From: Zingiber officinale | Taxonomy: Eukaryota > Streptophyta > Magnoliopsida > Zingiberales > Zingiberaceae | Direction: 5' to 3' | NCBI RefSeq assembly: GCF_018446385.1 | Contig: NC_055997.1 | Span: 39,126,254 to 39,190,253 of the forward strand | DNA length: 64,000 bases | In this document: positions 3,377-55,189 of the stretch, one piece after another | Position numbering within the stretch: position 1 is the stretch's first letter | Layout of the letters: the number at the start of each line of letters is the position of its first letter | The notes under the pieces: generated by a model | Told to the model about the DNA's origin: nothing | The model's input: only the letters and a program-made list of their open reading frames with translations | Databases searched by the model: none | Translations under genes and position numbers: made by a program

Positions 3377-3379
3377 GCA

Positions 3380-6300: not shown

Positions 6301-7324
6301 GCCCAGAGGGCAAAGATAGATGATAAGTTCCTACAGCAACAGCAGCAACCCGTGCTCCATTGCCTACTCGTAGGTCCACCTCGCCCTTCGCCAATGCCCT
6401 ACTATTTCCCAGTGCCTGCACATTAGTACAAATGTGAGAAGCACATCCAGTATCTAATACCCATGATGAAGAAATAGATAGATTGACTTCTATAACATAT
6501 ATACCTGAAGTGGAAGTCTTACTTCGCTTCTTCTTAAGATCTTCCAGGTACACCTTGCAGTTCCTCTTCTGACCGCAGTGGAAGCAGGTAGCATCCTTGG
6601 CGACCCCTCCTTTAGGCTTCGGTGTCTTGCCTTTGCCCTTGGCTTGGGACTTTCCCTTGCCTTTGGGCTTGCCCTTGCCCTTGTGTTTCTGAACCATCAG
6701 AACAGAGTGGGGCTTAGCCTTCTTAAGGTTCATCTCAGTAGTTCTTAACATGCTAAGCAGCTCGAGCAGTGGCTTGTCAATTTCGTTCATATTGTAGTTT
6801 AGAACAAATTGACTATAGCTATCTGGCAAGGATTGCAAGATCAAGTCAGTGGTCAGCTCTTGGCCAAGCGAGAATCCCAACCTCTGTAGGTTTTCTATGT
6901 ACCCAATCATTTTGAGTACATATGGGCTTATGGGAGCCCCATCTGATATCTTGCACTGAAATAGTGCCCTTGAGATCTCAAATCTCTCATGTTGCGCTTG
7001 TCCTTGATATAGTTGATGAAGATGTTCAACCATATCGTAAGCGCCCATCAACTCGTGTTGCTTCTGAAGCTCAGAGTTCATGGTCGCGAGCATTAGACAG
7101 GACACATCTAATGCGTCATCTTGATGCTTCTTGTAAGCATCTTTATCTTCTCGCGTGGCATTGGCAGGAGGAGCCACCGGAATGGACTGCTCCAGAACGT
7201 ACAGTTTACATTCCTGGGTGAGAACTATTCTCATATTCCTGTACCAGTCCAGGAAATTTGCTCGGTTGAGCTTGTCCTTCTCAAGGACAGAACGCAGAGA
7301 GAAAGTGTTCGTATTCGACGTCAT
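3380..7324 (-). pseudogene. Copia gag-pol polyprotein, one frame with four premature stops
   Basis: One continuous minus-strand frame of about 1,315 codons from the ATG at 7324. In order: copia gag (start MTSNTNTFSLRSV), a zinc knuckle near 6570-6600, protease (DTGCASHIC), integrase (HHCC zinc site, then aspartates in HSDVCGPF and FTDDFSRYG), reverse transcriptase with YVDD near 4370, and RNase H (SDASF) ending at 3380. In-frame stops lie at 5456-5458, 4628-4630, 4469-4471 and 3947-3949. Each is one transition away from a sense codon expected at that place, as in decay of methylated cytosines. There is no frameshift. The zinc knuckle is also shortened: CX2C is followed by a Cys with the His segment missing. 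No functional product is expected. Confidence 0.93.
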
Positions 7325-8769
7325 GGTTATCTACAACAGAAAAATGCAAAAAATAAATATCATATTCTTTTAAATCATTTAATTAGGCCTTTAACTAAAT
7401 GATGCTCCCACTAAATTCTATAATTCATGTGGGACAAGATCCACATCATACTACGCCTTAAGTTAGCTTTGGCTAAATCGCCCAAGACTTAGTATGATCG
7501 GTAGGTAACAATTTACCAATTACATCTCTATGCAACTCTTGTTTATAGGATCATTATCCGCAGTTATATTAAAACTTGAGTTAGCTTTGGCTAATACGCC
7601 CAAGAATTAATATAAATGTAATTTATGTCCTATCTTTCCAACCATTGGAAGAATGCCTATAGTTGTACTCGATCCAACCGAGTTAACTAGGAATACTCAA
7701 TCTAATTGAGTTTGTACTCGCCCATGAGTTGATAAGCGGGACCAAGATTGTCCCTTCGTACCTTACCAAGATAATATGTGTTGCTCTGCTTTGGCAGATT
7801 CAACAACACATGTGATCGAGGTAGTGATAGGTATCACGACACGGTAGGCATTAGAGTTGATGAGATTGAGATCTAATCTAATCGAGAGGGTGCATCTTGT
7901 ACACGATTTAGATCTAATCTAATTATTAGGCACTAATTAATTACTAATCATGCATTACATACACACAAGCAATTAATTAAATTTATTTGTGATTAGTCAT
8001 GGCCCTACTACGATCTTCTCAAGCCAATGAGAAGATCGGATGGTCAATCTAAGGTCAACAGCTTCTCAAGCTTCTCCCTTTGACCACCTTGTGTTGCTCG
8101 CGCCCTCCTCGTAACTCCGTCTCGTGTGGACTTTCCACGGCTCCAATTTTGTACATTACAATTTTGAAACTCGAGTTACATTCGAGTCTAAACTAATTTT
8201 ACAACAAGAATAAATGGAGAAAGGCACGACGCGCAGGTCGCGTATCAAATATACAACACGCACAACACAAATGACGGTGCGCAGGCCGTAATATGAATTA
8301 CAACACATTTCCAATCAGATTGGGTCGTTTTGGGCCATGACCATCACAAATTATACATAATTCTAAATTATGTAATTTTCATAATTTTCTGTAATTTTAA
8401 TACTAATTTTTACAATATTTACGAGTAAAATTTCCCGATGGTCCCGTTTAGCGGTTTTCGGGCGCAATCGCGGAACGAATCCCCTTGCGGGGCCAGGGGC
8501 AGCGCCCCTACCCATGATCTAACCATCGCGAGTGTCCCTAAGCGATCCTACAGCGCCTTAGTCCGCTATCCCAAAAAGTTTTGGGGCGAAACCCTGCCGT
8601 TTCGGAAAAATCTTCTCGGTAGTCGAAGCCTACAAGTGTCGAAACACTTGTGCTTCGCTTCTACGAGAAAAATACCCATAAAAACTCTAAAAATCAGAAA
8701 TTTACATAATGTTACAGTACTGAATTTTTGTCATACAAATAAAAACTAAACTCGTACAAGCTTCGCACG
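7325..8769 (-). other. Untranslated leader of copia element A
   Basis: About 1.4 kb between the primer binding site and the gag start. I see no conserved coding frame. It holds AT-rich stretches and a GC-richer patch near 8430-8590. Confidence 0.7.
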
Positions 8770-8783
8770 TGGCTCTGATACCA
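8770..8783 (-). other. Primer binding site (initiator Met tRNA type) of copia element A
   Basis: The minus strand reads TGGTATCAGAGCCA one base inside the right LTR. This is the classic plant copia primer site complementary to the 3' end of initiator methionine tRNA, and it fixes the element's orientation. Confidence 0.93.
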
Positions 8784-8784
8784 C

Positions 8785-10603
8785 TGTTGGGTTTTTCGGG
8801 CCGCGAAAATCACTTTTTCGCATCGCGGAAACCCCGAAACCCCCGCCACCGGATCCGTGCGAAGAAAAATAAAAACAAAATATGAGTACGAGTTTCTAAA
8901 GTCTAGATCTACACTAGATAAGAGTGTTACCCTCGATGCGATGCCCTTGCTATCCCGCTAGTCCAACGGTTTGCCGGCTCTCAAGATTGTCAAAGTAGAC
9001 AACCCTCTAGAAGTATCCACACGAACAAAATTAGGTGGAGGGGACCAAACAAATGTGTGCTAGCACCTAGGGTGTTCGGCCAAGAGAAGAGGGAGAGCAA
9101 GAAGAGAGAGCTCTAGGAGGAAGAAGATGAGAGTTACTTTACAAAAATGAAAACTCAATGCAATTCATGTGGCCGACCACATTAAGAGGAGTTGTAACCT
9201 CCATGGAATGCCAAGAGTCACAACTCTTGGTAACTCCCATGAGGTGGCATCCCACTTAAGCAACCATGATGATGTGGAGCATCATCATTGGCCCACTCAA
9301 TGCCAACTCACCAATGAGGTGGCATAAAGTCAAGTCAAACTTGACTCTTCATCTTCCTCTCAAGTCAAGTCAAATTTGACTTAATCTCTCTCATGGTTGA
9401 TCTAATCCAACCATTTAATTCAAGTCAATTTAATATAATGAATCTAATTCATTTAATTAAATTGATTCAATGAGTCATAATCTAAATTAGACTCATTAAA
9501 CACATGAATCAACTTGAGTCCAACTCAATTAGCCCAATTAGGATTACTCTTAATCCAATTTGATTCATTACATGAATCTAATCCTCTTGGTTCATCATAT
9601 GAACCTAATCTCCATCTAATTATCCTTAGTGTGTGACCTTATAGGTTCTTGTAACGTTGGCAATGCCCCTAAACCTATTTAGGAGCATAAGTAATGAGCG
9701 GTATCTAGCAACACATCATTACTACCCAAGTTACAAGAATGTTGAGATCCAACATCACCTTGTGACTACTAATTGTGACTCCTCATAATATATGACAAGT
9801 GTCCTTCTATCCTAGACATCTAGATTGATCAATGTGAGGCATAGACCGTGTCATCCTCTGACCAATCTAAATCTTGATCTCCAAGTATACTCACTAAATC
9901 AAATGAACTCAATATCTCATATTGACTCATTTGGGCATGGCCATGCACTTCGTGGTCTCACTCTCTCAAGAATATCGATGTTGCTCTCGTTATATACGAG
10001 GGATAGATCCCATCTACATCACTCACATCCCTCTGCATAATTTGTTATATACCCAGTAATCGCCTTTATAGTCCACCCAGTTACGGATGACGTTTGACGA
10101 AACCAAAGTACATAACTCCTTATGTAGGGATCCATGGTGACTTCAGGTCTAAGGACTAGTAGTCATACTAATAGCCACATGATAAAGTATATGACACTCA
10201 TATAACGATCCATGATACTTTCTCATGGCGGGTCATTCAGTATACATTCTCCAATGCATACCCATGTGTCAACTTGATATCTCTATATCCATGACTTGTA
10301 AGATCAAGTCATCGAGTTGACCTACATGCTAGTCTTATTACATTAACATTGTCACTGAATGTTAATACTCGACTAGGAATGATTAAGAGTAGTGTTCCCT
10401 ATATCATCTCACTATCGGTTCAACTAACCGATTGATATAGGTGAGAACTTTCTACTCAAGGACGCTATTATACTTAGTTTATTTGGCACTAATACAAGTA
10501 AGTATAATAACCAAAAACAAATGCCTTTATTTATATAAGAATATGATACAACAAGTGCATAATACAATCATCAAAATGATTGGCTCTAGGGCTCTAACTA
10601 ACA
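8785..10603 (-). repeat. Right (5') LTR of copia element A
   Basis: This 1,819-bp copy of the left LTR ends in CTAACA on the plus strand and is followed by the ACTTA duplication. As the 5' LTR it would carry the element's promoter, reading leftward. Confidence 0.95.
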
Positions 10604-13717: not shown

Positions 13718-14039
13718 CTTGGAATTTTGTATTTGCATTTTATCGCAACTTTATAACTAATGTATATTGTTTGCTATTTATAAAATGTTACTGAAAGTTC
13801 ATACTTACTTGCTTTTCCTTGTGTGATTTGCTTTTCTTCAGAACCACCCAAGCGTATGTATGAATAACCTTATTCAATATGTATATTATATGTAGAGAAA
13901 TCTCATGGAAAAATTATAATCAAAGGAAGTAGATCCTCTAGTTATCTTCTGAGTAATATGTAATGATGAATGAACTTCTTTCCTGATGCTCTTCAGGTTC
14001 ATATAATAAATTAAGTGCCTTGTCCAGATATGAGGTACT

Positions 14040-14750
14040 CCTGACTTGCCCCAGGGATCAATCGAATTTATATACCTGGGCGAGATTAATTATCTGCTAT
14101 ATATGTGCTCCTTTAGGCTTTCCTGGCTGTGCAGAAGACCAGTCGGGTTTGTTCATCCGAGCGAAATTGAATATATGCTATATAAATGTTCCTTCAGGCT
14201 TTCCCGCTTGCATAGAAGATCGGTCGGGTTTGCATGCTCAAGCAAAATTGAATATATGTTACATAAATGTTCCTTCGGGCTTTCTCGCCTACATAGGAGA
14301 CCGGTCGAGTTTGCACGCTGGAGCGAAATGAAATATATGTTATATAAATACTCCTTCCGGCTTTCCCGCCTGCATAGAAGACCGGTCGGGTTTGCACGCC
14401 TGAGCAAAATAGAATATATGTTATATAAATGTTTCTTAGGGATTTCCCGCCTGCATAGAAGACTAGTCGGGTTTATACGCCCGAGCGAAATGAAATATAT
14501 GTTATAAATGTTCCTCAGGGCTTTCCCGCCTGCATAGAAGACTGGTCGGGTTTGCACGCCCAAGCGAAATGGAATATATGTTATATAAATGCTCCTTTGG
14601 GCTTTCTCATTTGCATAGATGACCGGTCGAGTTTGCACGCTCGAGCGAAATGAAATATATGTTATATAAATGTTCCTTGGGGCTTTCCCACTTGCATAGA
14701 AGACCGGTCGGGTTTGCATGCTCGAACGAAATTGAATATATGCTCAAGTA
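14040..14750 (+). repeat. Tandem array, about 9 units of 80-81 bp
   Basis: Units are marked by GGTCGGGTTTGCACGC-like blocks at about 14141, 14221, 14301, 14382, 14463, 14542, 14622 and 14703, with a more diverged first unit near 14060. Each unit also carries GGCTTTCCCGCCTGCATAG and an AT-rich ATATGTTATATAAATG block. Because the period is close to 81, long open frames run through it on both strands; they are repeat artefacts. The array lies inside the gypsy element between the antisense ORF and pol. Confidence 0.9.
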
Positions 14751-14779
14751 CTGTTAATGTTCAAACTTATGATTGATCT

Positions 14780-15465
14780 TAGAGAAGGTTTATAGTCTCC
14801 GATTCCCCTTAAGGAAGTTAGGACGGTCACTCCTTAAGGTCCCTGATCGACTAGATGGAGGTTTAAAGTCTCGGGTTCCCCCTAAGGAAGTCAGGTCGGT
14901 CACTTCTTATGGTCCCCGATCGATTAGATGGAGGTTTAAAGTCTCTGGTTCCCCCTAAGGAAGCAAGGTCGGTCACTCCTTAGAGTCCCTGATCGACTAG
15001 ATGGAGGTTTAAAGTCTTTAGTTCCCCCTAAGAAAGTCAGGTCGGTCACTCCTTAGGGTCCCCGATCGACTGCTATAGAAGTTTAAAATCTCCGGTTCCC
15101 CCTAAGGAAACCAAGCTAGTCACTCCTGAAGATCCCCGATCGACTGTTATGGAGGTTTAAAGTCTCTGGTTCTCCCTAAGAAAGCCAGGCTGATCATTCC
15201 TTAGGGTCCCCGATCGACTGCTATAAAGGTTTAAAGTCTCTGGTTCCCCCTAAGGAATCCAGGACGATCATTCCTTAGGGTCTCCGATCGAATGTTATGG
15301 AGGTTTAAAGTCTCCGGTTCCCCCTAAGGAAGCCAGACCGGTCACTACTTAGGGTCCCCGATCGACTGTTATGGAAGTTTAAAGTCTCCGGTTCCCCCTA
15401 AGGAAGCCAGGCTGGTCACTTCTTAGGGTCCCCGATCGACTGTTAGGGAGATTTAAAGAAAAGTA
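14780..15465 (+). repeat. Tandem array, about 9 units of 73-74 bp
   Basis: Units contain GGTTTAAAGTCTC, then GGTTCCCCCTAAGGAAG and CCCCGATCGACTG. GTTTAAAG-type marks occur at about 14861, 14933, 15007, 15081, 15155, 15228, 15302 and 15376, with a first diverged unit near 14788. It directly follows the 80-bp array and is unrelated in sequence to it apart from GATCGA/GGTCGG cores. Confidence 0.9.
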
Positions 15466-15593
15466 TGTATCTCTCCCAAATAATATTGCCTGCATTTTAT
15501 CTGCCATTTGTATTAAAAAATGTTCAAACAAAATACATAAATGACTTACAGGTATTTTTATTAAGTTCTATATGGTTGCAAATGATTAGCACT

Positions 15594-16130: not shown

Positions 16131-17557
16131 ATTAAATCATTTTTCTATTGCTGATAACTTCACTTGAATGACCATTTACAATTGGAATTTACTAACATGG
16201 ATTTCTAGCATGCACCTTTAATATTTATTCTGTGTTCTTTTTCTGTTTTAAATGCAAGAAGAAGACAAACTTAGAAAATGTCACTATCATGACTGATTAA
16301 TATCCTATAATAGGGGGCTTAACATGACTTGATAATATGAGATGAAAAACTATTTATGCCATATATTAACAGCATAAAAAAGTAATAGGTTCTGTCTCAT
16401 TAAGATTTCTTGTTTGTATATTTAGTCTCTAAAGAGAAATGCCATGGAAAGAATTATTGATTTTTCACCTGAAGCATGTTGTAATGGCCTAATCTATTCT
16501 AGATGTACCACACCTTAATGAATTACTAATTTTTTTCATAATCAATTCTAGAGTTCCATTGGTAATGGCCTAACCAATTTCTTTGGCTCGAATTTACAAT
16601 TGCTTTGCCAATGCTTTTTTGCTATGTCTAACTTCCACAAAACCTGAATGTTTTACTTATTATTGTGAATGAGAATTGCATATATAATTCCATAATATCT
16701 TCAGTTGTACTCATTCATTAGTTTCTTAGGTTGTGTGAAAGAATGGTGCCTCGTGTGTGAACTTGAGCAATATGCTTTACTGTTGAGTGAAGAAGGTGGT
16801 CCTTTGTCTCCCATCAAGATCCTTTCAAACATGACAAATATTGGGTGCCCTAGTTGATATATGTTTTTCCTGTGTGAAATAATGGGCAAGTTACAAGACT
16901 TAGAAACTTTTATATGTTTACCCTAGTTGCTATAAGTTTTTTGTCCTATGCAATAGTATCACTTTTAATCATCTACTTAACTCATGGAGTTGAAGTGAAA
17001 TGCATTAGTTTTCTTTCAATTGAAATCAATAGATTTTTTTATCTATCGAATTCATTATTTCTTTTGGGAGTTAAATATCAAATACTGAGGTTGAGTATCC
17101 TTTATTATTTTCATTCTATTTTTTGTTTGTTTATTCTCTTCACTAGGCCTTGTTGAATAGTATTTTTCTTTATAGAAATTCTAGTAATTTATTATTTTGA
17201 AGCGGAAATTGGGGTTTTGAGAAGATGAATGCTAAGATGAAAATCTTGAGAATAATACGAATATTGGTGGCTAGTGAAATACTATTAAATGCATATTAGA
17301 TTAAAACAGTGTTGGAACATTGTTAATAGTGAAATCTTTTATTGTTAGTGATTTATTATTTTTTAGATGATTTAGAGAAATTTATGAGCTTTGTAAAATA
17401 ATAATTAGATAAATAAAAATTATATATACATTTTGATTATATTTTATAATTTTTTATTTCTATTAAAGTGATGGATGAATTATTATAATGTTTAAATTTT
17501 AAATTTGAATTATATATTTTAAATAAATATTAGTGATAATTATATGACATTTTAACT
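16131..17557. other. AT-rich sequence without a recognisable gene
   Basis: Only short open frames and A/T runs are visible. No transposon protein similarity or clear repeat was seen. Confidence 0.5.
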
Positions 17558-17850
17558 GTAGCGCATACCACGTGTTGCGAATATTGTTAACTACAGCATG
17601 CAGTGCTCGCTACGAATACTGTTAATTACAACACGCACAGCGCACTGCGAATGCTCTTAGCCGCAGCGCACGGTGCTCGCTGCGAATGCTCTTAACCGTA
17701 TTATGCGATGCGCGCTACAAATGCTCTTAACTGTAGCACGTGGTGCGTACTGCGAATGTTCTTAATTGCAGCGTGCAGTGCACGCTACAAATGTTCTTAA
17801 CTGCAACGCATAGTGTGCCCTGCGAATGCTCTTAACTACAACACGTCTTT
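17558..17850 (+). repeat. GC-rich tandem array, about 8 units of 35 bp
   Basis: Each 35-bp unit reads roughly TTAACTGCAGCGC, then a variable GTGC part, then CGCTGCGAATGCTC. The unit has complementary GCAGCG and CGCTGC arms, so each repeat can fold on itself. It stands out as a CpG-rich island in a very AT-rich surrounding. Several units differ by C/T or G/A, as in methylation decay. Confidence 0.85.
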
Positions 17851-32765: not shown

Positions 32766-35700
32766 TCAGCGAGGTGACTCTACTTCCAACGGCAACATTG
32801 GTGATGTGGCGCTGGTGCTTGTACCACTTCTTGGCTGCTCGCAGATTGTTCTCAGACCCAACTGCTGCAGTTGATGCACCACGTGCGACATCCTAGGCCG
32901 AACAGAAGGCACAAGCTGGGTGCACGCATATACAAGATCCACAACCTTTTGTATCACCCCAACATCTGGGATGTCAGAAATGAGTGGATCCAGTAGCTCA
33001 ACATATCTGTGGGACTGAACTAGCGGCGTTGCCCACTCAAATATTGTCTGCCAACCCACAGATTCAATGGCCTGGCTTGGTCGTCGGCCGCTGATGATTT
33101 CTAGCAACAGCACGCCAAAACTGTAAACATCACTTTTTGTTGTCAATTCATTTCTATACATGAACTCTGGAGCAAGGTATCCATAGGTTCCTGCTGTCTT
33201 TGTCCTTTCGTGCATCACTTCCCAGGGGACAAACTTGGAAAGGCCTACACCCATCAGATGAGACCCAAACTCTTCATCAAGAAGGACATTGCTTGCTCGT
33301 ATATCGCGGTGTACAACTTGGGGCTTCACCTTGTCATGCAGGAATCTGCAATTGTGAAGATCAGTTTGTATATGAACTGAGTTTAACACAACATCAACAA
33401 AAAAACCATGATTTGGAGTCCACTGCATGAGGTGGTTTACCCTCCATTTAGCAATACAAGATAATCAATAACGAACAAAAAAGATAAGTCTATTAGTGTC
33501 AACTATTCAAGATCAGCTACATGGACCTTATCTTTCTATGATATATCCCATAGAGATGGGACAAGTCAGAGATTGAACACTTATATCCTTAATCCTAATT
33601 TGTCTTTCACACATTCACCACATCCGATAGCCGTAACTAGATGAATCACCAATGAATAAGATCAAGTAGAACAGACATCAAATTCTACCAAAAAAAACAA
33701 AAACTCCCTTTGTACCCATGCTAGACAGAAATATACTGAGTTGACACTCAATTTATTCACATGTTCAAACACTTAGATTCACACGTGTGTAAGATACTCA
33801 TATGTGAGTCTGCATTAGACACTTAGACCAATATCCATGTCAAATTCTCATTCTTGAATCCAGTGGCATGGGCTTAATGGACCATTTCCCAAATGAAAAA
33901 AAAAAAAATTCAAGAGTTCCTTGCTGGTCTGCATTCAAACTCATAGAGCATATACCCCTGAATCCCTTGAACAACAGTTACTATGAATCTCACTCCTCTA
34001 GTGTAATTATTTCATCTGATATCTACAGAACGGCACTATCCATCCATAATTTATAATTCACCTAAACAAAAGAATTGTCTTCTGATTAAAACAGCACTGT
34101 GTAGGTACCAAATGATAGAACAAAATTTTACAGTTAAGAAATGATTATATGCATGTGCTTATCTTGAAATTCAGTTTCTACTATACTTACGCAATTCCCT
34201 GAGCAAGAGTTGTAGCTACTCTCATCCTCATGGCCCAATCTAAGCTTCGACCGCCTCTTGGCATGTGGTGCAGCCATCGATCCAATGGTCCATTGGCAAC
34301 AAATTCGTAGATAATAAAGCGATCACCATGATCATAGCAACAACCTTTTACAGCAACTAGATTAGGATGATGAAGTTTGGCTACCCTTCCAACCTCAGAA
34401 TAGAATTCCTTCTTCCTTTGAAGGCTATACCTCTTCAGTCTCTTAACAGCCACTCTCAAGCCATCAGGCAAGAAACCACTATAAGTTCCACCAGTTTTCG
34501 CATCACCAAGGAGTCTATTTCCTTCACTGAAGTTCTTTGTGATTAATCTCAATTCTTCACTGGTAAATACTTTCCATGATGGAGGAACTAATGCAATTGC
34601 TGAAGGACTAGAAATTTTACGAGAGCGTCTACGCTTCTTGCTTCGCCTATATACTAAGAGCCATATGACAACAACCAAAGTGATGAAAAGGATTAATCCA
34701 CTGACAGCTGCAAGGGCAATCAGATACTCCATATGACAAAGCTTGTGGGGACATTGGTTTTCTGCCAGACCAAAATTATCACTCGGTTAAATAGTGGCAT
34801 CACACATCAAATTCTATTGGCTAACTAGGAATAGGGGATAAATCATGGATAAAATGCTTAACTGCAAATAAGGGATAAAAATTAATGGTCTTGGTTTCAG
34901 CAATCAACTAACAATATTTACATGATGTTGCTCTAACACTTTTTGACATAACAACAAAGATTATAAACAGGTCAAATTTAGGAACTTGAAAAAAAAAAAA
35001 GATTTACTAAGTCAAGTACTACCTCGAGCAACCATGCAAATATATTCATGTGATGTATTGCAGCTTTCAGCAACCAGAGCAACCCGACTATTAGGTATCA
35101 ATGTACACAAATCAGGCAGGCTGATTCCATTGCACGAATCACTTGAACAATTGATATGAGAAGGTTTGCTAGAGAAAACAGATTCGTTCCATCTAGACAT
35201 ATTGTCAAACCATTTCCAGACGAATTCAAGTGAAGAATTATAACCTCGTCCACCAACCCAGCATCCTCCAATGCTTCCCACACATAGGCTTTGTGTGAAA
35301 TTCAACTCACCAACTGAAGTGAGGGATGCTAAATGACCATTATAACTCTGGCAGGCTGTCTCTGATTGAACCCAAGGGACAGAACTAGCCATATGCATGA
35401 AGCACTTATCCTTACTAGGACTAACGAGCCAACCATCAGGGCAGGACACTGTTGCAAGAAAAAATGTATTATAAGTATAACAAATCTTCAACTTCCAGAG
35501 TTTAGAGAAATATCTTCGCAGAAGAGAAAGAATAAACTGTAACTGAAATATAAACATCCTCCTTACATGGACCATATATTAGGACTCAATGTCCTTGGCA
35601 AATAAGAAACAGCATTACCATTCCATATTTGCATTTATACAGAATTACAAAAATCAGGTGAATGTCATATTCTTAACTGGTGACTGTTCAGGAGGTAGTT

Positions 35701-38580: not shown

Positions 38581-39564
38581 TGTTAGGACAAGTGTGGCAG
38601 GTAAGAGGAGGTAAATTACCCTGAAAAATAAAATCAAACATTTCTCAATCTAATAGCTTGATTTAAACAACCACTTTATTAAAATAAACTAAAATGAATA
38701 AATTAATAAAGGCTACTGATTTTACTTGGTTACAACCGGGGAGGTTATTAATCCAAGATATTGAAAGCACTAATCAAATTCTCCTTTCATCGTAGGCAGA
38801 GAAGCCTCTTATAAGCATTGGAAGCACACAATTAAAGAAATAGAATAGAAAATAAACTCGTGTACAAGTAATTGTTTAAACTACTGAGACCAGTGCTCTA
38901 TTTATAGCCTGCTGGTCAAATATGATCGTTTGCTGACGTAGCAGCTTTGGGCACCTGGAAAGGATCCAGGCACCTGGGTGTGGATAAAACTTTATCCACA
39001 TTGCAACTTGATCAAGATAAATTCATTCTAGTCCGAGCGTCTGGACCAAGTCCGGGTGCCCGGACGCCCTTGCTCTACGAGGCAGGCATCGAGGCGTCCC
39101 TGGGCTTGCCTAGGAGATCTGGGCCCCTAGACCCAGTCTAGGCGCCCGGAGCATCCGAGTGCTTGGACTTGGTCCAAGTGCCCGGATAGTCAACATCTTG
39201 TTGACTATCCGGTTCTCCTCCAATCCGGCTCCGTTCGCTTGGGTGATTTTGGCCATCCGAAATTGGGCTCACCCGAACTCATTTTCTGGCCTTCTCCTCG
39301 AGCAAGCTTCCGCTCCAGCTTCTCGTCCCTTAGAAACATCGTGTGCGTCCTTCTCATTTGCTAGCGTACTCTTCTATAGCACCTCGTCCCTCGAACGCAC
39401 CGAGCTTGTCGGCTCTCTTCTGTGTCGTCCTTCTTATCAGCTGCATCTTTCACTCGACTTCATGTACTCCTAAGTTCCTGCACACTTAGACACAATATAT
39501 CAAATAAACATAGAACCTAACTTAACTCGGTTGACCACATCAAAACTACCTTGAAATATTAACA
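38581..39564 (-). repeat. Left LTR of the older gag-only element
   Basis: 984 bp. The TATA box on the minus strand is TATAAAT (38900-38906). Upstream of it (to the right) are four motif pairs with 19-bp offset: 38950/38969, 39035/39054, 39121/39140 and 39157/39176. Core words resemble GNGCNCCNGGAC. The polypurine tract follows at 39565-39580. Confidence 0.85.
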
Positions 39565-40439
39565 ATCTCTCCCTTTTTGATGTGCATCAACCCGAGTTAG
39601 AGTTAGGGTAAAAACATAGAATTAATAAAATAATAGTTAAAACTAAAATTTTACAAACTATAAAATTATAAATATAACCTCCCCTAACTTAAGATCTCAT
39701 CTCTCATTCTCCCCCAGTAAAAATAAAATGGGGGAAAAACAAAGTTAGATACAAAATTTGAAACTTTTCTAGGGGTTAAGGAAACATAATTCAAAGTAAA
39801 TTTTTTTTTACAGAATATTTGTCTAAAAATTTGATTTTTTATGATTTAGTAATCATATTTGAAAATTTAATTTAAAAATAAGTTTAACATTTCAAAAGAA
39901 ATTAAAAATTTGCTTAACGTTCAACAGAAGTATCTAAATATGTAGAAAAATTTTCATGAAAAATTTATAAGTATTTTAGCACAAAAAAATTATTTTGCAC
40001 AGAAACATAGGTTTTGCAAGTTAAATTTAAAATTTTATTTTTATTAAAATAAATTCTTAAAAAAATTTCAAGTATTGAGAACAGAATGTCTAACTAAAAA
40101 AAATTAAAATTTTCAAAAATAAGTTTTTGTTAATTTTTAGTTTAAAAATAATATGTTCGGTAAATAATCAATAGAAAATTCATTATTTATCAAAAAATCT
40201 ATTGAAAAATATTTTCAAATAGAAACTTGACGGCTTTATCACTATAAAAAATTTAGATAAGAATTTCAAAGAGAAAGATTATACGTAAAATATTTTAAAC
40301 AGACATGATTCTTTTTGAAAATGAATATCATAAAAATAGTTTTATTAACCTAAAAATCAAGCTGATTTTTTTCTTTATTCAAAATATAACGGTAATTCTC
40401 CAAAAAAAAATCAGGTTTGTCAAAATACATATTCAAAGA

Positions 40440-41720
40440 ATTTTAAAATTTAAATTATGATTTTTCAATAAAAATTTGTTTTCTTAATTTTTTATTTTCT
40501 TCTTTTAATTTATCATACATTTCTAAAGGACATGTATTTGCTAAGATTATTTTTAATTCAAAAACTTCCTTTTTCAAATTATTATTTTTAAGTTTGAGTT
40601 TATATAAGGATCTACTTATGAATTTAATACATGTATATAATTGGTCAAGGGTAGTAAACATACCTCACTTACCAGATCTGTTGTGATGTTTATTTCTTCC
40701 TCCTCGCTGCAGCTTTCTTCTGAGAAGCCTCCCCTTACATCTATACTCTCCTCCTGGTGACTTGCATCAGTGAAAGTCTAGCATACTCATCCAGATCAGA
40801 TTCTGATGGTGACTCGTCCCAAGTCACCTTCAGGGTTTTGTGCTTTGTTGTCTTTTTTCTTCAGTTTTGGGCAGTCATCCTTGATGTGTCCCTCTTCATT
40901 GCAGTTATAAATCCTTATCTTCCTTGCTCTTCTTTTCTTCGCCTATACTTGATTAAATTTATTAGATTGAAAGAATTTTTTAAATTTCCTTACCATATAT
41001 GCTAATTCATCATCGTTGAGGGAAGTGCCAGTGTCTAATTCATCCTTCTTAACTTTTAGAGCAATATTGTTAGATTTTCTATTTCTTGATTATCTACACA
41101 ACAATACTCGTGAAGTTTAAAAATTGAAAATAAATTTTCAAGAGTACTTGCCTCGAGATCCTTAGAGATATAGTAAGCATCTACTAAGACTAACCACTCT
41201 TGAGTTCTCAAAAAAATATTAAGTGCATACCTTAAAAAGTCACAATTTGTTACCTTTTCTCCGAGGTTGTTGAGTTGGGTGATCAAATCTTTGATCCTTG
41301 CATGGAGTTGGACTACCTTCTCTTCCTTGTTCATCCGGAGGTTTGTCAGTTGGCTTCGGAGGATGTCCTGCTTTGTTAGTTTAGCTTCCAAAATACCTTC
41401 GTGAAGCTCTAGGAATTTTTCCCAGAGATCTTTGGCGGAGTCATAGCTTCCGATCCGACTGACCTCCTGGGGTGGAACAACATTAATCAGATGAAACTCT
41501 GCTTTCCCATTAGCCACGAAGTCAACTTGTTCCTTCTTTGTCTATATGTATTATTCTTTCTCGGCTCCGTGTTGATCTGTTGGTGTTACAAAATCATATT
41601 TTATAATTAGTAATATTTCAAAATCGGTCTTGAAGAATACCTCCATGCGCTTTTTCTATGTTGAAAAATCTCCCTCAAATTTTAGTGGGTAGATACTGGA
41701 TCCGACCATTTTTTTTTACT
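40440..41720 (-). pseudogene. Gag pseudogene of the older gag-only element
   Basis: Fragments in order on the minus strand: an N-terminal piece (about 41720-41520), the middle UBN2/copia-type gag (41517-41056, ANGKAEFHLINVVPPQEVSR), a zinc-knuckle remnant near 40890-40920 with YNCNEEGHIKD, and a coiled coil (40661-40455). The same blocks occur in 50147-48693. Multiple stops and frameshifts. Confidence 0.8.
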
Positions 41721-41767
41721 TTGGATGGTGATTGTCCTTCTAAAATGAGCCTAGCTATGATACTACT

Positions 41768-42703
41768 TGTTAGGATCCTTGAGACCGGTAAAAGGGGGTG
41801 AATTACCCTGAAAAATAAAATCAAACCTTTCTTGATCTAATAGCTTGATTAAAACAATCACTTTATTAAAATAAACTAAAATGAATAAATTAACAGAGGC
41901 TACCGATTTTACTTTGTTACAACCGGAGAGGTTGTTAATCCAAGACGTTAAAAGCATTAATCAAATTCTCCTTTCGTCGTAGGTGGAGAAGCCTTTTATA
42001 AGCGTTGAAAGCACACAATTAAAGTAGTAGAGCAGAAAATGAACTTGTGTACAAGTGATTATTTAAACTACTGAGACTAAGGCTCTATTTATAGTCTGTT
42101 GATCGAATATGACCGTTTGTTGACGTGGCAACTCGAGCGCCTGAAAGAGGTTCGAGCACCTAGGTGTGGATAAAACTTTATCCATGTCTTAATGACTCGA
42201 TCAAGATAAATTCATTCTAGTTCGAGCGCATGGACTAGGTTCGGGCACCTGAACGCCCTTGCTTTGTGAGGTGGGCGTTGAGGCACTTCTGGGCTTAGCC
42301 AAGGGGTCCGGGCGTCTAGAGAATCTGAGTGCCTAGACTTGGTTCAAGCACTTGGATAGTCAATAAGATCCATTCGCTTGAGTAATTTCGACCATCCGTA
42401 ATAGGACTCACCCGCACCCATTTTCCACCCTTCTCCTTGAGCAAGCTTCTACTCTGACTTCTCATCCCTCGAAAATGTCGTGTGCTTACTTCTCGTTCGC
42501 CATCATACTCTTCTACAACACCTCGTTCCTCAAACACATCGAGCCCATCGACTCTCTTTCTTGTCGTCCTTCTTGCTAGCTGCGTCTTTTGCTCAACTTC
42601 CTGTGATATTAAGTTCTTACACACTTAGACACAAGATATCAAACAAACATAGAACCTAATTTAATTCAGTTGACAACATTAAAACTACCTTGAGTCACTA
42701 ACA
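41768..42703 (-). repeat. Right LTR of the older gag-only element
   Basis: 936 bp. TATA on the minus strand at 42087-42093. Paired motifs again lie upstream (for example GAGCGCCTGA at 42135 and GAGCACCTAG at 42154, 19 bp apart). It differs from the left LTR at many places. Confidence 0.85.
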
Positions 42704-42708
42704 AGTCT

Positions 42709-45645: not shown

Positions 45646-46996
45646 TGTTAGGGAGCCCGATGCGGTGCATGCTTAATATGTTTCATAAAACATGTACATG
45701 AACTAATAAATATGATAATAAAACTAATTTTATTGCAAGACACACCACATACATGTAGGATCTAACTTACGCAGACATAATTGTAAAATAAAAACTTTTA
45801 AGAATAATAATTATTCTAGGCATATCTTACGAATGATGAGAAAGTAAAAGGGTATCAACTTAGAGATGTCCACGGACCTTGCCTCTATTTATATCCAAGC
45901 CAAGATCTTCAAGACAACTCCGATGAGCAATAAGTTTCACCTTCAATTGATACTAACCAAACATGGAGGTGATGTGATCCAAGAGAAGGAAGAAGAAGCG
46001 AAGAAGCTTGAGGAAGAAAACCTTCTTTGGCTTCTTGGTGGGTGGCGATAGAGAGAAGAGAGGAGAGGAGAGAGAGAGAGGCTATGTTTCAAAAACCTAA
46101 ACCAATAAATAATGAATTGGTTCATATTAATTTCTCTTTACCATATCAATATATAGTTCCTCTTGATGAGTTGAACTAAAAAGCTCAAACCCAGCCCAAA
46201 TTTCTTAACCAAAATTTGACTCATTAACCTCTTGGTTTGGTTTACAAACAAACCAACTTGGTTTAAACCAAACTGATTTGGTTCATTACTAAATTAAATA
46301 GAGTCTAACTCTTCCATAAGAGCTGTGGCCCATTCAAGCTTTCGTTCTGATAAAAAATCTTCCATATATTTCTTTCATATTATCCAACCAAACATCTTAT
46401 CTCTTGATCTGAAAATCAAATTCTCAAACTTATTTTATGTCTTTTAGATACTCATATGTGTGTGACTCAATAGATTCCTGATTTATCTTAGTCATTTATA
46501 AATAACTACTTAATTATGGATCGATCATGAGTGACACCTAATAGTACATTATGATCCCCAATTAACCAAAAAATTACAATTGATTCAAGAACTAGTTCTA
46601 AACCGTTCAGCAGCTATATTGAGTTGTGTCTTGCTTCTTTTACTTGTCTTATACCCACTTGATTTAGAACATGATTTATGTGTCTATCCCCACTAGACTG
46701 ACTATGTCACACCTAGGCCAAGTAATATTAACTCGTCCTGTGGATTCAAATTACTCCTACTTGTGTCTAAAAGTCTTATACTCTTAATATGTGATGATTT
46801 GCAAAGAGTTTGAGTAACAATCTTGATAAGTAGCCATATGGTATACATCTCCTTGCAAGGAGAGATGAATCCTTTATGGACTATCCAAACACCTTTAGGT
46901 ACTTCAACTTATACCCAATCATCTCGGGTTCACATCTCCAAGGAGATGCTTTGCTTAAAATGTCAAAATATAAACCTCCATGACCAAGGTGACTTG
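45646..46996 (-). repeat. Left LTR of copia B, first part
   Basis: It starts TGTTAGGGAGCCCGATGC and matches 53446 onward (TGTATTGGGGAGTCCGATGC), including the AG-rich block near 45980-46080. It continues after the nested element at 51319. Confidence 0.85.
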
Positions 46997-48101
46997 TGTT
47001 GGTGCAGCGGAGACCGATAAGAGGGGGGTGAATTGCCTGCAAGTAAAAACTAAAACCCTCCTCAACCAATTTAAACTGAAATAGATGCAATAGCTACAAG
47101 ATGAAACAAAACTTAAAGTATGAACAGAAAAGAAAGACTCAGCTATTTTAACCTGGTTACAACCAAGAAGGTTGTTAATCCAGGACGATGAAAGCGCACT
47201 AAGAAACTCCTTCTCTGAAGGCGGAGAAGCCTTTTACACTTTGTAGAGCACAAAACTATTGCTTAACTAGACAGTACAAGAGTTGAAATTCGTTCGTATT
47301 CAGTATTCTGTAAAGCTACCCGAGACCCTCTTTATATAGGGGTTCTCGAGCTTATCAGATCACCTGATCCTTCGGGATCAGGTTTGACTCGAGAGGGATC
47401 GGTCGACCGATCCCCAGGTTCGGTCGACCAAACCTACTGTACCTGCCAAGCTTTCCGTCCAGGTGTAGTCTCTGTGGATCGAGCTCAGGTTCGGTCGACC
47501 GATCATTGTGTTCGGTCGACCGATCGGCCAACGGTCTTCCTCTGCGCTGGCCCGATCAAAACGCTCGACTGAGTCTCTGGATAAACGTTGGTTCGATCGA
47601 CCGATCAAGGGGTTCGGTCGACCGATCAGTCCCCCAACGGCTTGCTTGCTGACGTGGCTTCTGACGTGTCACCAGCGGTTGGTTTTCTGAGGATTGGTGT
47701 TCGGTCGACCGATCAATAGGTTCGGTCGACCGAACCGTTGACAAGTCAACTCCAGTTGACTTGCTCCGGTTAGCTCCTTGGGTGATTGTGGCCCACCGGA
47801 ATAGGGCTCACCCGAACCCAATTCCCGGCCTTCTCCTCGAGCAGGCTTCCGTACGGCTTCTCGTCCCTCGAACGCCGCGCACGTTCTTCTCGCTCCACCG
47901 GAGTACTCTTCCGCAGCTCTCTCGTCCTTCGGACGCACCGAGCCCGTCGACTCCCTTCCCGTGTCGTCCTTCTCGCTAGCTGCGTCTTCCGCTCGACTTC
48001 CTGTGCTCCTAAGTTCCTGCACACTTAGACACAGGGGTCAGACAAAACGCAGGACCTAACTAACTTGGTTGATCACATCAAAACTACCACGGGGTCCAAC
48101 A
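46997..48101 (-). repeat. Left (3') LTR of the younger gag-only element
   Basis: 1,105 bp, TGTTGGTG...CCAACA. TATA box TATATAAA (minus, 47331-47338). The U3 side (47401-47731) carries the paired GGTCGACC palindromes described separately. Confidence 0.93.
47401..47731 (-). promoter_or_regulatory. U3 array of four palindrome pairs with exact 21-bp offset (left LTR)
   Basis: GGTCGACC or one-base variants start at 47401/47422, 47493/47514, 47595/47616 and 47703/47724. Every pair is offset by 21 bp. The extended word GTTCGGTCGACCGAAC is a 16-bp palindrome. The array lies 63-400 bp upstream of the TATA box. A dimeric DNA-binding factor is a reasonable guess; no factor is known to me. Confidence 0.85.
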
Positions 48102-48692
48102 ATCTCCCCCTTTTTGATGTGCATCAACCCAAGTTCAAGTTAGGGTAAAACAGACATAAGAAGTAATTTTAAAGAAAAATTACTAAACTAGTATATTAAG
48201 CATAATTTTTGCAATAAGTAAAATTGCAACAATATTTAGAAAGAATATTAAAAATTTAAAGCTTCCTAACTCCCCCTAAACTTGTACTTTTCTTTATTCT
48301 CCCCCTTTGATCACAACAAAAACGGGGGCAAACAAGTTACAGAAGTTGAAGTAGGTTTTAACTTAAAAAAAAATTCTAAAAAAAATTCTAAGTTAAGATG
48401 AATTTTTTCAGAATTTTCAAAGGAAAATTTTTAAGTTAAAATTTCAAGAAACAATTTTTCTAGAAAAAAGTATTTAAAGAGTTCCTAAGGATATGTTTAA
48501 AAACTTTTTAAAGCATTGTTTAATTCTAATATTAATGCTTTTATCAGAAGGTTAATTAAACATTTTTATTTCGATATTTCGGCTTCCAGGTCGTGGCGAG
48601 GCACTAGGCCTTCTTGGTTATTGGAGCAACAACCACTTCCTTAGACAAAGCTTCCATAAAGAAACTCAAAGTTTAATTTTATCACTGTAAAA

Positions 48693-50147
48693 TTAATCAA
48701 GTACAGATTTTGGAACCCAGTAAAGGTTCCTTCCTACAGGATTCTTTAAAAACATAGAGGGTATATAACTTTTAGGAATTTTCCTAAGTTGACCCTGATG
48801 TTGTTTAATGTACCAATTCAATTTTCCATAAATTCTAACTTTTGATTTTGGAAATCTATTTAAGCATGCATCAGTTTTTAATTTTTCAATTTCTAATTTT
48901 AAATTATCATTTTCTGATTTTAGATGATCATACATTTCTAACGGGCATGCTCTTACTAGGTTCAACTTTAGTTCAGCATTCTCTTTTTCTAATTGATCTA
49001 ACTCTCTAGAAAGAGACTTGATAAATTTAAAAGATTGAGTTGGGGTTAGATTGCGTACCTTACTTACTTGTTCTGGTGACGCTCCCCCTTCACTGCTGCT
49101 TGCTTCTTCTGATGTTCCTCCCCCTTCATCAATGCTCATTTCTGAGCTAGATGTTTCTTCTAGCTGATGGTTGGCTATCAGTGCTAATCCCGAGAATTCT
49201 TCGACTTCTGACTCGGAGGATGAAGAGTCGTCCTATGTCGCCTTCAGATTTTTGTGCTTGGAGGAATCTAGTTTCTTGTACTTGGTCTTTGTCTTCTCCT
49301 TTTGCTTGCTCTTCAATTTCGGGCAGTTATCCTTGATATGCCCTTCTTCGTTGCAGTTGTAGCAACGAATCGTTCTTCTTTTTCTCTCATGCCTCTGCGA
49401 TCTAAATTTGTTAGATTTAAAAAATTTATTGAAGCGTCTTACCAGTAGTGCCGCTTCTGATTCATCGACCGAGGCTTCGGAGTCAGAACTGTTGATTTTT
49501 GCCTTTAAGGCAATGTTTTGACTGATCTTCTCTACTCCATTGAGCTCTGAAACTCGAGATTCATGAAGTTCAAAAGTGGGAAATAATTGTTCTAAACTAC
49601 TTACCTCGAGGTCCTTAGAGATGTAGTACGCATCTACTAAGGAGACCCACTCTGGAGTTCTGGGGAAGGCGTTGAGTGCATACCGGATAGGGTCACGGTT
49701 CGTTACCTCTTCTCCAAGATTAGTTAGTTGCGTGATCAGCTCTTTGATCCTTGCTTGGAGCTGCGCTACCTTCTCACCTTGGTTCATTCGGAGGTTCGTC
49801 AACTGGTTCCGGAGGATGTCGCGCCTCGCTAGCTTCGCTTCGGAGGTACCTTCGTGGAGCTCCAGGAATTTCTCCTAGAGATCTTTCGCGGAGTCGTAAC
49901 TTCCGATCCGATTTACCTCCTGTGGTGGCAGTACACTGAGTAGATGGAACTCAGCCTTTCCGTTGGCGACGAAGTCTACTTGCTCCTTCTTACTCCATGT
50001 GTTTTCTTCTTTATCTTTCGGCGCTGCAAAACCATATTTCATAGTAATTAAAATATCAAAGTCTGTTTTAAAGAATACCTCCATTTTTTGCTTCCATGTA
50101 GTGAAATCTCCGTCGAACTTCGGGGGATGGATGTTCGTGCCGGCCAT
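48693..50147 (-). pseudogene. Gag gene of the younger gag-only element, two premature stops
   Basis: One frame of 485 codons from the ATG at 50147, 50 bp after the primer site. It has a UBN2/copia-type N-terminal domain (start MAGTNIHPPKFDGDFTTWKQ), a zinc knuckle CYNCNEEGHIKDNC (CX2CX4HX4C, near 49320-49366), an acidic Ser-rich stretch, a coiled coil (about 49040-48860) and a basic C-terminus. In-frame stops are at 49875-49877 and 49233-49235. Gag would package RNA in a cytoplasmic particle; this copy is broken, but the zinc knuckle is intact. Confidence 0.88.
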
Positions 50148-50196
50148 TGTTCTGATCTTTGTGCTTCAGATGGCGGTTAGTCCCTCTGAGACTGTT

Positions 50197-50210
50197 GGGC
50201 TCTGATACCA
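50197..50210 (-). other. Primer binding site of the younger gag-only element
   Basis: TGGTATCAGAGCCC on the minus strand, two bases from the right LTR; initiator Met tRNA type. Confidence 0.9.
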
Positions 50211-50212
50211 CT

Positions 50213-51318
50213 TGTTGGTGCAGCGGAGACCGGCAAGAGGGGGGTGAATTGCCTGTAAGTAAAAACTAAAACCCTCCTCAACCAATTTAAACTGAAATAG
50301 ATGCAATAGCTACAAGATGAAACAAAACTTAAAGTATGAACAGAAAAGAAAGACTCAGCTATTTTAACCTGGTTACAACCAAGAAGGTTGTTAATCCAGG
50401 GCGATGAAAGCGCACTAAGAAACTTCTTCTCTGAAGGCGGAGAAGCCTTTTACACTTTGTAGAGCACAGAACTATTGCTTAACTAGACAGTACAAGAGTT
50501 GAAATTCGTTCGTATTCAGTATTCTGTAAAGATACCCGAGACCCTCTTTATATAGGGGTTCTCGAGCTTATCAGATCACCTGATCCTTCGGGACCAGGTT
50601 TGACTCGAGAGGGATCGGTCGACCGATCCCCAGGTTCGGTCGACCGAACCTGCTGTACCTGTCAAGCTTTCTGTCCAGGTGCAGTCTCTGTGGATCGAGC
50701 TCAGGTTCGGTCGATCGATCATTGTGTTCGGTCGACCGATCAGCCAACGGTCTTCCTCTGCACTGGCCCGATCAAAACGCTCGACTGAGTCTCTAGATAA
50801 ACGTTGGTTCGGTCGACCGATCAAGGGGTTCGGTCGACCGATCAGTCCCCCAACGACTGGCTTGCTGACGTGGCTTTTAACGTGTCACCAGCGGTTGGTC
50901 TTCTGAGGATTGGTGTTCGGTCGACCGATCAATAGGTTCGATCGACCGAACCGTTGACAAGTCAACTCTAGTTGACTTGCTCCGGTTCGGCTCCTTGGGT
51001 GATTGCGACCCACCGGAATAGGGCTCACCCGAACCCAATTCCCGGCCTTCTCCTCGAGCAGGCTTCCGTCCGGCTTCTCGTCCCTCGAACGCCGCGCACG
51101 TTCTTCTTGCTCCACCGGAGTACTCTTCCGCAGCTCTCTCGTCCTTCGGACTCACCGAGCCCGTCGGCTCCCTTCCCGTGTCGTCCTTCTCGCTAGCTGC
51201 GTCTTCCGCTCGACTTCCTGTGCTCCTAAGTTCCTGCACACTTAGACACAGGGGTCAGACAAAACGCAGGACCTAACTAACTTGGTTGATCACATCAAAA
51301 CTACCACGGGGTCCAACA
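50213..51318 (-). repeat. Right (5') LTR of the younger gag-only element
   Basis: 1,106 bp. TATA TATATAAA (minus, 50547-50554). Palindrome pairs start at 50617/50638, 50709/50730, 50811/50832 and 50919/50940, all offset by 21 bp. Where one LTR has a one-base variant of GGTCGACC (47595, 50709, 50940), the other has the perfect word. Confidence 0.93.
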
Positions 51319-51807
51319 ACTTGAATACCTCAAGTTAAAGGAAACTTACACTTGAGCTGCAATAAGAACTTCATAGACATATCCATGTATGTAGAGAACC
51401 ATATGAAGTCTTATAGCAGGTCACTCCAATGAACTAGTTAACATAACTAGCATTTATGTTTAACTCTCAACATTCCAATGTGTCAAGCTAGTGAGTAACA
51501 GCTGCTTGATTAGATCAAGAAGTATAACTCGTGCTAGTCTTATAGAATTAATAATGTCTGAATATATCAATTCATTGACTAGGGAATGTTTTAATACTTT
51601 CATAATTACACATGTAGAGATACTCACTAGTTGTGATCTAATCACAAGTTCTCTCATGCTATGAATTGTATTATGGATATTCAATAAATGAGTTTAAGAT
51701 CATTCAAAAACATAAGCAATGCACACTTAAATACTAAATCTTTATTTATCAAAATAAATGGTATAAACCATAAGACGATTGTCTTAGAAGACCTCTCAAA
51801 CATAACA
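51319..51807 (-). repeat. Left LTR of copia B, second part
   Basis: It continues the copia B LTR (ACTTGAATACCTCAAG; compare 54790 onward) and ends CATAACA. Confidence 0.85.
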
Positions 51808-53445: not shown

Positions 53446-55189
53446 GTATTGGGGAGTCCGATGCAGTGTGTGCTTAACACATTTTGCAAAATATACAGCT
53501 GAATTAATAAATATGATAATAAAGCTAATTTTATTACAAGACATACACCACACACTTGCAGAAAACAACTCATGCAAACATAATCATAAAACAAAAACTT
53601 TTATGAATAATAATTATTATAGGTGTACCTTACAAATGATGCGAAGGAAAAAGGGCATCAACTTAGCGATGTCCACGGACCTCGCCTCTATTCGTATCCA
53701 TGTCAAGATCTTGAAGACAACTCCAATAAGCAACAAGATTCACCTCTGATTGGTACTAGCCAAGCGTGGAATCAATGTGATCTAAGAGAAGGAAGAAGAA
53801 GCGAAGAAGCTTGAGGAAGAAAATCTTCTTTGGCTTCTTGGTGGGCAGCGACAGAGAGAGGAGAGGAGAGATAGAGAGGCTAGGTTTCAAAAACCTAAAA
53901 CAATGAATGATGAATTGGTTCATATTAATTTCTCCCTTCTATATCAATATATAATTTCTCTTGATGAGTTGGATTATAAAATCAAAATTTAGCCCAAATT
54001 CCTTAACCAAAATTTGGCTCATTAACCTTTTAGTTTAGTTCACAAGCAAACCAACTTGGTTTAAACCCAACCAATTTGGTTCATTACTAAATCAAATAGG
54101 GTTAAACTCTTCCATAAGAGATGTGACACATCCACGCTTCTGTTACAATAAAATAGCTTTCATATTTTCCCTTCATCTAGTATAACGAAACATCTTATCT
54201 CTTGATCTGAAAATCAAATTCTCAAACTTATTTTATGTCCTTTAGATACTCTTAGTATGTGTAACCTAATAGATTCTCGATTTTTCTTGTCCATCAATAA
54301 TTAACTATATAATTATGAATTGATCATGAATAACACTTAGTAGTATATCATGATCCCTAATTAACCGAAAAATCATAGTTGATTCGAGAACTAGTTCTGA
54401 ATCCTTAAGTAGCTTTAGTGAGTCATGCCTGGTTCCTTTCACTTATCTTATACCCATTTGATTTAGAACATGATCTATGTGGCTATCCCTACTAAACTAA
54501 CTATGTCACATCTAGGCCAAGTAATATTAACTCGTCCCATGGATTTAAATTACTCCTTTATGTGTCTAAGAGTCGCACATTCTTAACATGTTTTGATTTA
54601 CAAAGACTAAGTAACAATCTTAATAAGTGGTCATAGGGTATACATCTCCTCGCAAGAAGTGATGAATTCTCTATGAACTATCCAAACACCTTTGGTTATT
54701 TTAACTTATACCTAATCATCTTGAATTCACATCTCCAAGGAGATGCTTTTCTTAAGGATCAAAGTATAAAACTCCATGACCAAGGTGGCTTGAATACCTC
54801 AAGTCAAAGGAAACTTCTATTCGAGTTGTAGTAAGAACTTCATAGACATATCCATGTATGTTGAGAACCATATAAATCCTTACAGCAGATTACTCCAATA
54901 AACTAGTTACCATAACTAACATCCACGCTTAACTTTTAACATCCCAATGTCTCCAGCTAGTCAGTGTAGTTACTTGATTAGATCAAGGACTATAATCCAT
55001 GCTAGCCTCATAAAATTGATAATGTCTGAATACATAAATTCAATAACTAGTGCATGTTTTAATACCTTCATAATTATACATGTAGAGACACTCACTAATT
55101 GTGATTCAATCACAAGTTCTCCCATGTTATGAATCATATTGCAGATATTCTATAAGTGAGTTTAAGATCATTCAAGCACATAAGTAATG
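53446..55189 (-). repeat. Right LTR of copia B, truncated
   Basis: It aligns to the left LTR from its start to about 100 bp before the end and breaks at 55190, where a gypsy LTR begins. Confidence 0.85.

Follow-up and report, generated by a model that had tools for sequence, protein, structure and literature searches.

Palindrome pairs with a 21-bp offset upstream of the TATA box in a gag-only Sirevirus-type LTR retrotransposon

A gag-only element with Sirevirus landmarks

The 64-kb stretch of Zingiber officinale DNA analysed here (the window) carries at 46997-51318, on the minus strand, an LTR retrotransposon of 4.3 kb, delimited from the window sequence, a repeat-pair search and alignment (Table 1). 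A target duplication, ACTTG, can be read on both sides of it (46992-46996 and 51319-51323). The two LTRs differ at 32 of 1105 compared sites (2.9%; K2P 0.030), in agreement with the roughly 3% of the first-pass annotation. At an assumed substitution rate of 1.3e-8 per site per year, the insertion would be about 1.1 million years old. The element is nested in one repeat copy of an older element (45742-46996 and 51319-51721), a second copy of which, 82-87% alike, lies at 53545-55189.

Table 1. Coordinates of the element's features in the window
Feature	Position	Strand	Details
3' LTR (TG...CA)	46997..48101	-	1105 bp; repeat pair, LTR alignment
5' LTR	50213..51318	-	1106 bp; sequence, repeat pair, alignment
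Primer binding site TATCAGAGC	50199..50207	-	junction CA/AGTGG/TATCAGAGC on minus strand
Terminal polypurine tract AGGGGGAG	48104..48111	-	followed by AT and the LTR's TG
Four extra AGGGGGAG copies	48270, 48299, 49082, 49118 (48270..49125)	-	octamer search of window
Inverted repeat at PPT/LTR junction	48067..48129	.	arms 48067-48083 and 48112-48129; one-base bulge
gag piece with zinc knuckle	49233..49874	-	PF14223 Retrotran_gag_2, E 3.7e-07; zf-CCHC, E 1.7e-06
gag N-terminal piece	49878..50147	-	similarity to relatives; without Pfam match of its own
TATA box, left LTR	47331..47338	-	TTTATATA, minus-strand TATATAAA; 58 bp after last unit
Pair nearest TATA, left LTR	47397..47433	-	units 47397-47412, 47418-47433; offset 21
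Pair, left LTR	47489..47525	-	units 47489-47504, 47510-47525; offset 21
Pair, left LTR	47591..47627	-	units 47591-47606 (has GATCGACC), 47612-47627; offset 21
Pair farthest from TATA, left LTR	47699..47735	-	units 47699-47714, 47720-47735; offset 21
TATA box, right LTR	50547..50554	-	58 bp after last unit
Pair nearest TATA, right LTR	50613..50649	-	offset 21
Pair, right LTR	50705..50741	-	offset 21; first unit has GGTCGATC
Pair, right LTR	50807..50843	-	offset 21
Pair farthest from TATA, right LTR	50915..50951	-	offset 21; second unit has GATCGACC

The landmarks of Sireviruses given by Bousios et al. (2010; PMC2829016) are a polypurine tract (PPT) octamer with AT/TG, multiple PPTs, a CA/ATTGG (or AGTGG)/TATCAGAGC junction and an inverted repeat flanking the PPT. 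In the window element the terminal octamer begins 10 bp upstream of the 3' LTR. The same octamer occurs five times in the 64-kb window, each time inside this element and on its strand; the chance mean is 1.22 per 64-kb window, and five copies were reached by 2 of 100 shuffles. The junction between the 5' LTR and the primer binding site is of the AGTGG variant. Among 54 fetched or window records, an ATTGG or AGTGG junction is present in 14 and the 12-mer AGGGGGAGATTG in 13. The inverted repeat bordering the PPT has arms of 17 and 18 nt with one bulge; these were located by inspecting the sequence and are unlisted by the ungapped search (arms of at least 12). A C run, CACCCCCCTC, lies near the 3' end of the LTR. 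Rfam at gathering scores gave no match in the window.

The 2.1-kb interior (48102-50212) holds the two gag pieces, separated by an in-frame stop (49875-49877), and one other open reading frame piece without a Pfam match. No pol, as in the gag-pol coding region of an autonomous Sirevirus, was found, and the landmarks show the element to be a non-autonomous, gag-only, Sirevirus-type Ty1/copia LTR retrotransposon. A TR-GAG is an LTR element with LTRs, primer binding site, PPT and gag that lacks pol, and each of these features is found here.

Elsewhere in the window, a repeat pair spaced 7.2 kb (1545-10266; 96-97% alike, probably LTRs) surrounds reading frames that by eye are fragments of Copia-like gag, integrase and reverse transcriptase. 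Tandem arrays with periods of 81, 74 and 35 bp lie at 14019-15522 and 17552-17837, the 81-bp array being open on both strands for more than 150 codons. Pieces resembling exons of a receptor-like kinase with a lectin-like outer part were seen by eye at 32766-35578.

Paired RM boxes in the window's LTRs

Each LTR of the element carries eight near-copies of a 16-bp palindrome, arranged as four pairs with a start-to-start offset of exactly 21 bp in every pair, while successive pair starts in the left LTR are 92, 102 and 108 bp apart. The pairing, the constant offset and the variable distance between pairs had all been described in the first-pass annotation, as had the position of the pairs upstream of the TATA box, which follows them in the minus orientation of the element. 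Its eightfold motif was counted too generously, however: 7 of the 8 units in the left LTR match GGTCGACC exactly (the exception, at 47595, is GATCGACC), as do 6 of the 8 in the right LTR (the exceptions are GGTCGATC at 50709 and GATCGACC at 50940), and the full palindrome GTTCGGTCGACCGAAC is exact once per LTR, at 47720 and 50634. The usual unit on the element strand is GATCGGTCGACCGAAC. In the whole window, GGTCGACC was observed 15 times against 0.14 expected, 13 of the 15 being within the two LTRs. When the window was scanned blindly for palindromes paired at offsets 17-30, these eight pairs scored 54-60, and 20 shuffles did not exceed 48; in the rest of the window one AT dinucleotide run reaches 50 or more (52 and 64), and the next best score is 49. 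The second LTR does keep all four pairs and all four offsets, as had been claimed, but this is not by itself evidence of selection because its motif bases differ from those of the first LTR as often as the remaining bases (4 of 128 vs 28 of 977). Conservation between the two LTRs was accordingly discarded as a sign of selection.

Palindromes of this kind have been described before, a point that the earlier reading overlooked. Bousios et al. (PMC2829016) reported repeated motifs (RMs) in 13 Sireviruses: palindromes, nearly all with a CGG-CCG core, in at least 8 copies per element, with the LTR copies upstream of the TATA box and the cluster marking a CpG island. They inferred a regulatory role and named no factor. 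The window LTRs have a CGG-TCGA-CCG palindrome, eight per LTR, clustered upstream of TATA, and these palindromes are Sirevirus RM boxes, grouped in this element into four two-site modules that lie immediately upstream of the TATA box. The closest likeness is to the Vitis RM, CGGTCGACCG (PMC2829016, Table 3), which is a palindrome with the identical core in many promoter-proximal LTR copies. The Vitis element is a Copia with the same PPT, primer binding site and inverted repeat landmarks; unlike it, the window element is without pol. The maize OPIE-2/PREM-2 RM also forms clusters of CGG-CCG palindromes in the cis-region of Sirevirus LTRs (PMC10760457), although its palindrome is a different one, CACCGGACTGTCCGGTG (PMC2829016), and the commonest consensus of structured Copia regions in maize is CACCGGACNNNGTCCGGTG (PMC10760457). 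The passages of PMC2829016 examined make no mention of a fixed pairing or offset of RMs, and none was found in the passages of PMC10760457 on the maize RMs. Strict pairing, or motif-class swapping between relatives, was not found described in the portions of the literature examined. The pairing rule may be new.

The window also contains an older gag-only relative (38581-42705), whose LTRs (38581-39565 and 41768-42705) are 75-87% alike in matched pieces and whose gag is 73% identical to that of the window element over 192 columns. At the same place of its LTRs it has different palindromes (class 2, TCCGGGCGCCCGGA), for example GTCCGAGCGTCTGGAC-CAA-GTCCGGGTGCCCGGAC at an offset of 19, and further degenerate pairs can be seen by eye. 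By BLAST, its two LTRs match the window LTR at 79% and 74% over 317 bp upstream of the palindrome block and at 72% and 74% over 118 bp past the TATA box. Across the block itself there is no BLAST match in register; one extra match of the left LTR, 16 bp long, is out of register and lies on the upstream side of the block, and a forced alignment across the block gives 40-42% identity. The two elements of the window therefore have a differing palindrome block between alignable flanks.

Spacing and conservation across the genome

Genome-wide counts were made in the 3.09-Gb host assembly with exact matches only and with the reversed pattern as control. Pairs of GGTCGACC occur at offset 21 in 14,841 places (control 0), at offset 20 in 996 (control 0) and at offset 22 in 50 (control 1), so that for each place with offset 22 there are about 20 with offset 20 and about 300 with offset 21. 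The offsets of other copies, which the earlier note had proposed to collect, are thus concentrated at 21. Offsets 9-20 combined give 1,618 matches (control 11) and offsets 22-52 combined 1,993 (control 89); among the 50 matches listed for the latter range, 24 have offset 42, which corresponds to three units. Successive offsets in 40 fetched loci chosen for holding pairs were 21 in 128 cases, 20 in 22 and 22 in one. Since these loci were picked by offset (L005-L033 for an exact offset-21 pair, L034-L044 for a shorter offset, all from contig C1), their tallies are biased; the genome-wide counts are not biased in this way. Two of the loci, L005 and L006, have an extra motif, GGTCGACCGCGCGCGGTCGACC (offset 14), 389 bp from the main array, which in L006 it flanks on the side opposite to TATA; 17 of the 50 matches listed for offsets 9-20 are motifs of this length.

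Class 2 is spaced differently. Its pairs occur with a 5-nt spacer (offset 19) in 3,268 places genome-wide and with spacers of 0-4 nt in 1,449, nearly all of 2 nt (offset 16) among the 50 matches listed; both controls are 0. Spacers of 6-36 nt add 2,502 places (control 0), largely three-unit arrays among the matches listed. A variant core, CGGGCACCCG, gives 107 and 113 places at offsets 11-40 (controls 3 and 1). A universal 5-nt spacer for both classes was therefore rejected. In ten fetched class-2 loci, which represent eight places, the TATA box lies 6-7 bp after the array in 8 of 8.

With their units masked, 42 arrays of the window's class fall into at least four LTR groups, as judged over 200 aligned bases: A (15 arrays), B (13), C (8, including those of the window) and D (3), with three singletons. 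Unmasked whole loci form a single BLAST cluster at 150 bits, and at 400 bits all but the old element's two LTRs still do. Of the 42 arrays, 37 have a TATA box at most 90 bp downstream, and the other five have none within 90 bp; on the opposite side one is found in 12 of 42. Its distance past the last unit is nearly fixed by group: 10-12 bp in 14 of 15 group A arrays, 57-59 bp in 12 of 13 of group B and 8 of 8 of group C, and 6 bp in 3 of 3 of group D. Motif columns are 0.872, 0.918 and 0.956 identical in groups A, B and C, against 0.727, 0.754 and 0.736 for between-pair columns, in a comparison of 12 of 15, 12 of 13 and 6 of 8 arrays that favours the motif because units were recognised by motif likeness. 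When gaps are scored as differences the contrast is smaller (0.758, 0.781 and 0.891 vs 0.651, 0.660 and 0.724), and the 5-nt spacers themselves are 0.57, 0.59 and 0.70 identical. Across family copies the motif is thus more conserved than the DNA between pairs, the outcome on which the earlier note had staked its reading, although in group C the identity of the 150 bp upstream of the array comes close to that of the motif (0.896). Because the TATA box is near in most arrays at a near-fixed group distance and the motif columns are more conserved, a promoter-proximal regulatory role fits.

Clusters of units in the 42 arrays comprise 135 pairs, 14 triples, 3 quadruples and 13 singles, and 32 of the arrays have four or five clusters. 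This tally shares the bias that comes from picking loci by offset. This scoring rescues weak partners (at most 6 mismatches at 20-22 bp), which raises the counts of pairs and triples, and in both window LTRs it adds a weak third unit to the third cluster. The inner edges of the pairs are fixed and asymmetric, GAAC-N5-GATC, with A and A innermost in 141 of 157 pairs. The spacers in between vary widely in sequence between pairs and groups and are mostly 5 nt long. Within groups A, B and C the spacer length changes number 20 of 174, 32 of 191 and 0 of 46, and the gap rate between pairs predicts 10.7-12.7%, 14.8-17.5% and 3.5-4.2%. One-bp changes inside groups are therefore about as frequent as the background predicts, which does not show rigid spacing there. 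Support for rigid spacing comes instead from the lack of longer spacer changes and from a spacing common to different groups. All 56 spacer gaps are of 1 bp, a pairwise and non-independent count in which spacers were recognised only up to offset 26, whereas 1-bp gaps make up 70%, 63% and 36% of those between pairs (A, B and C). Together with the scarcity of offset 22 relative to 20, this absence of multi-base gaps in aligned spacers suggests a limit on spacer length.

An equal offset might also be a relic of copying, in which a 21-bp unit (palindrome plus 5 nt) was tandem-duplicated and whole pairs were copied around U3, so that the spacing would need no function even if single palindromes have one. 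Triples and quadruples with identical spacers exist, class 2 has tandem-like 19- and 16-bp spacings, and the 1-bp spacer indels at about the background rate are also compatible with such a history. Duplication, however, would have to account for a cluster size that, under the lenient rescue of weak partners, is two in 135 of 165 clusters instead of being spread, for spacers that differ widely in sequence and hardly in length, and for the rarity of offset 22. We consider this origin unlikely.

Palindrome classes, gag ancestry and a possible promoter module

The distribution of palindrome classes disagrees with the gag tree. Among its 15 rows, those of class 2 are spread over both main clades (split supported at 100/100), once within a mainly group-A branch (98/96). 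Three changes of palindrome class are required, two of them forced by supported branches, and 7 of the 12 inner branches are unsupported. Constraining class 2 to a single group costs 171 log-likelihood units; as that group was defined with the BLAST identities already known, the AU p value does not come from a blind test. Left out beforehand were L020 and L044, whose gag match is on the opposite strand or beyond the array, L045 and L046, which represent one place and gave no gag match, and L049, a duplicate of the place of L048; L042, L050 and L054 dropped out with fewer than 120 residues. Either palindrome sets were replaced or LTRs recombined between lineages, two histories that a gag tree cannot separate, but in the two window elements it is the block that differs while the flanks align.

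The reading we favour, if only slightly beyond an even chance, is that the palindromes are promoter-proximal enhancers bound pairwise by a candidate host protein. It starts from their observed position, pairing, conservation and orientation. Each 16-bp palindrome would be bound by a putative dimeric host DNA-binding protein, and each pair would be occupied as one cooperative module of two adjoining sites whose centres are 20-21 bp apart, held in a fixed orientation toward the promoter that it would activate. The fixed asymmetric inner edges suggest such a directional protein-DNA module. Lineages that retained these enhancer modules may have stayed transcribed, and the motif bases and pair spacing would then have persisted while the surrounding DNA turned over. 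The whole set might be exchangeable for another class with its own spacing, possibly with an adaptive meaning. Against a module, tandem 21-bp duplications exist and could yield equal offsets without function, and offsets 19 and 16 are both common in class 2. LOB-domain proteins, considered as the binding factor, were dropped, no supporting paper having been found in the literature search. Repeated protein-binding sites drive LTR transcription in the 21-bp U3 repeats of HTLV-1, the U3 repeats of Tnt1/Tto1 and the heat-shock elements of ONSEN, whose binding factors are known.

The first-pass annotation had gone further and proposed that an offset of two helical turns places both sites on one DNA face for a dimeric factor. 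While the regulatory role fits the promoter-proximal position, this specific binding model is not established. Because class 2 has offsets of 19 and 16, two helical turns cannot be general. Strict helical phasing is also opposed by the tolerance of offset 20, by the 1-bp changes at background rate and by the lack of phasing from pair to pair: in a Rayleigh test at 10.5 bp on the distinct distances between pair starts, the overall p is 0.66. Group B alone gives p 0.005, uncorrected for several tries. Helical phasing between successive pairs was therefore rejected as a general rule.

Alternatively, the palindromes may act as hairpins in RNA or single strands, with folded U3 transcripts feeding small-RNA production or a replication step, as proposed for maize Sireviruses. 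The RNA fold of 47390-47740 (minus strand) is indeed strong (z = -8.7; 0 of 100 shuffles as stable), but any palindrome array would fold, and a stem formed by a pair would have an A-A mismatch at its innermost position in the same 141 of 157 pairs. Nor is there an excess of C>T changes, which keep RNA pairs, on the element strand: 332 units show 72 C>T, 114 G>A and 109 other substitutions, probably mostly decay after insertion. In maize, an excess of small RNAs maps to palindromic-motif clusters of Sireviruses (PMC10760457, 2023, citing Bousios et al. 2016), yet small-RNA targeting alone would not favour retention of the motif. Hairpin function seems quite unlikely to us; given the strong fold and these maize reports, small-RNA effects are possible as a consequence.

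Beyond enhancer modules bound pairwise, the class pattern invites a broader and rather doubtful proposal. Sirevirus promoters may be built of exchangeable two-site cassettes with class-specific spacing (21 for GGTCGACC; 19 and 16 for TCCGGGCGCCCGGA), which would imply a host factor acting as a dimer of dimers. Repeated swaps of whole sets would then be a switch of the host factor depended on or escaped from, independent of gag ancestry. Such class swaps let the change of regulators by elements be studied as a natural experiment, and a two-site module at 14,841 exact places in one genome is a concrete bait for finding a promoter-driving factor. Sireviruses are a major component of certain plant genomes and account for about 21% of that of maize (PMC3599292).

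Some stretches between neighbouring arrays were also inspected. The one between two group-C arrays (L055) has no open reading frame of 110 codons. Another, between two group-B arrays 10 kb apart (L056), has an RVT_2 match (E 7.7e-69). Open reading frames were seen in L059 and L057, between class-2 and group-A arrays. That of L059 has a below-cut-off match to PF20167, a putative plant transposon protein (E 2.7e-10), and could be the extra env-like reading frame of Sireviruses or another nested element.
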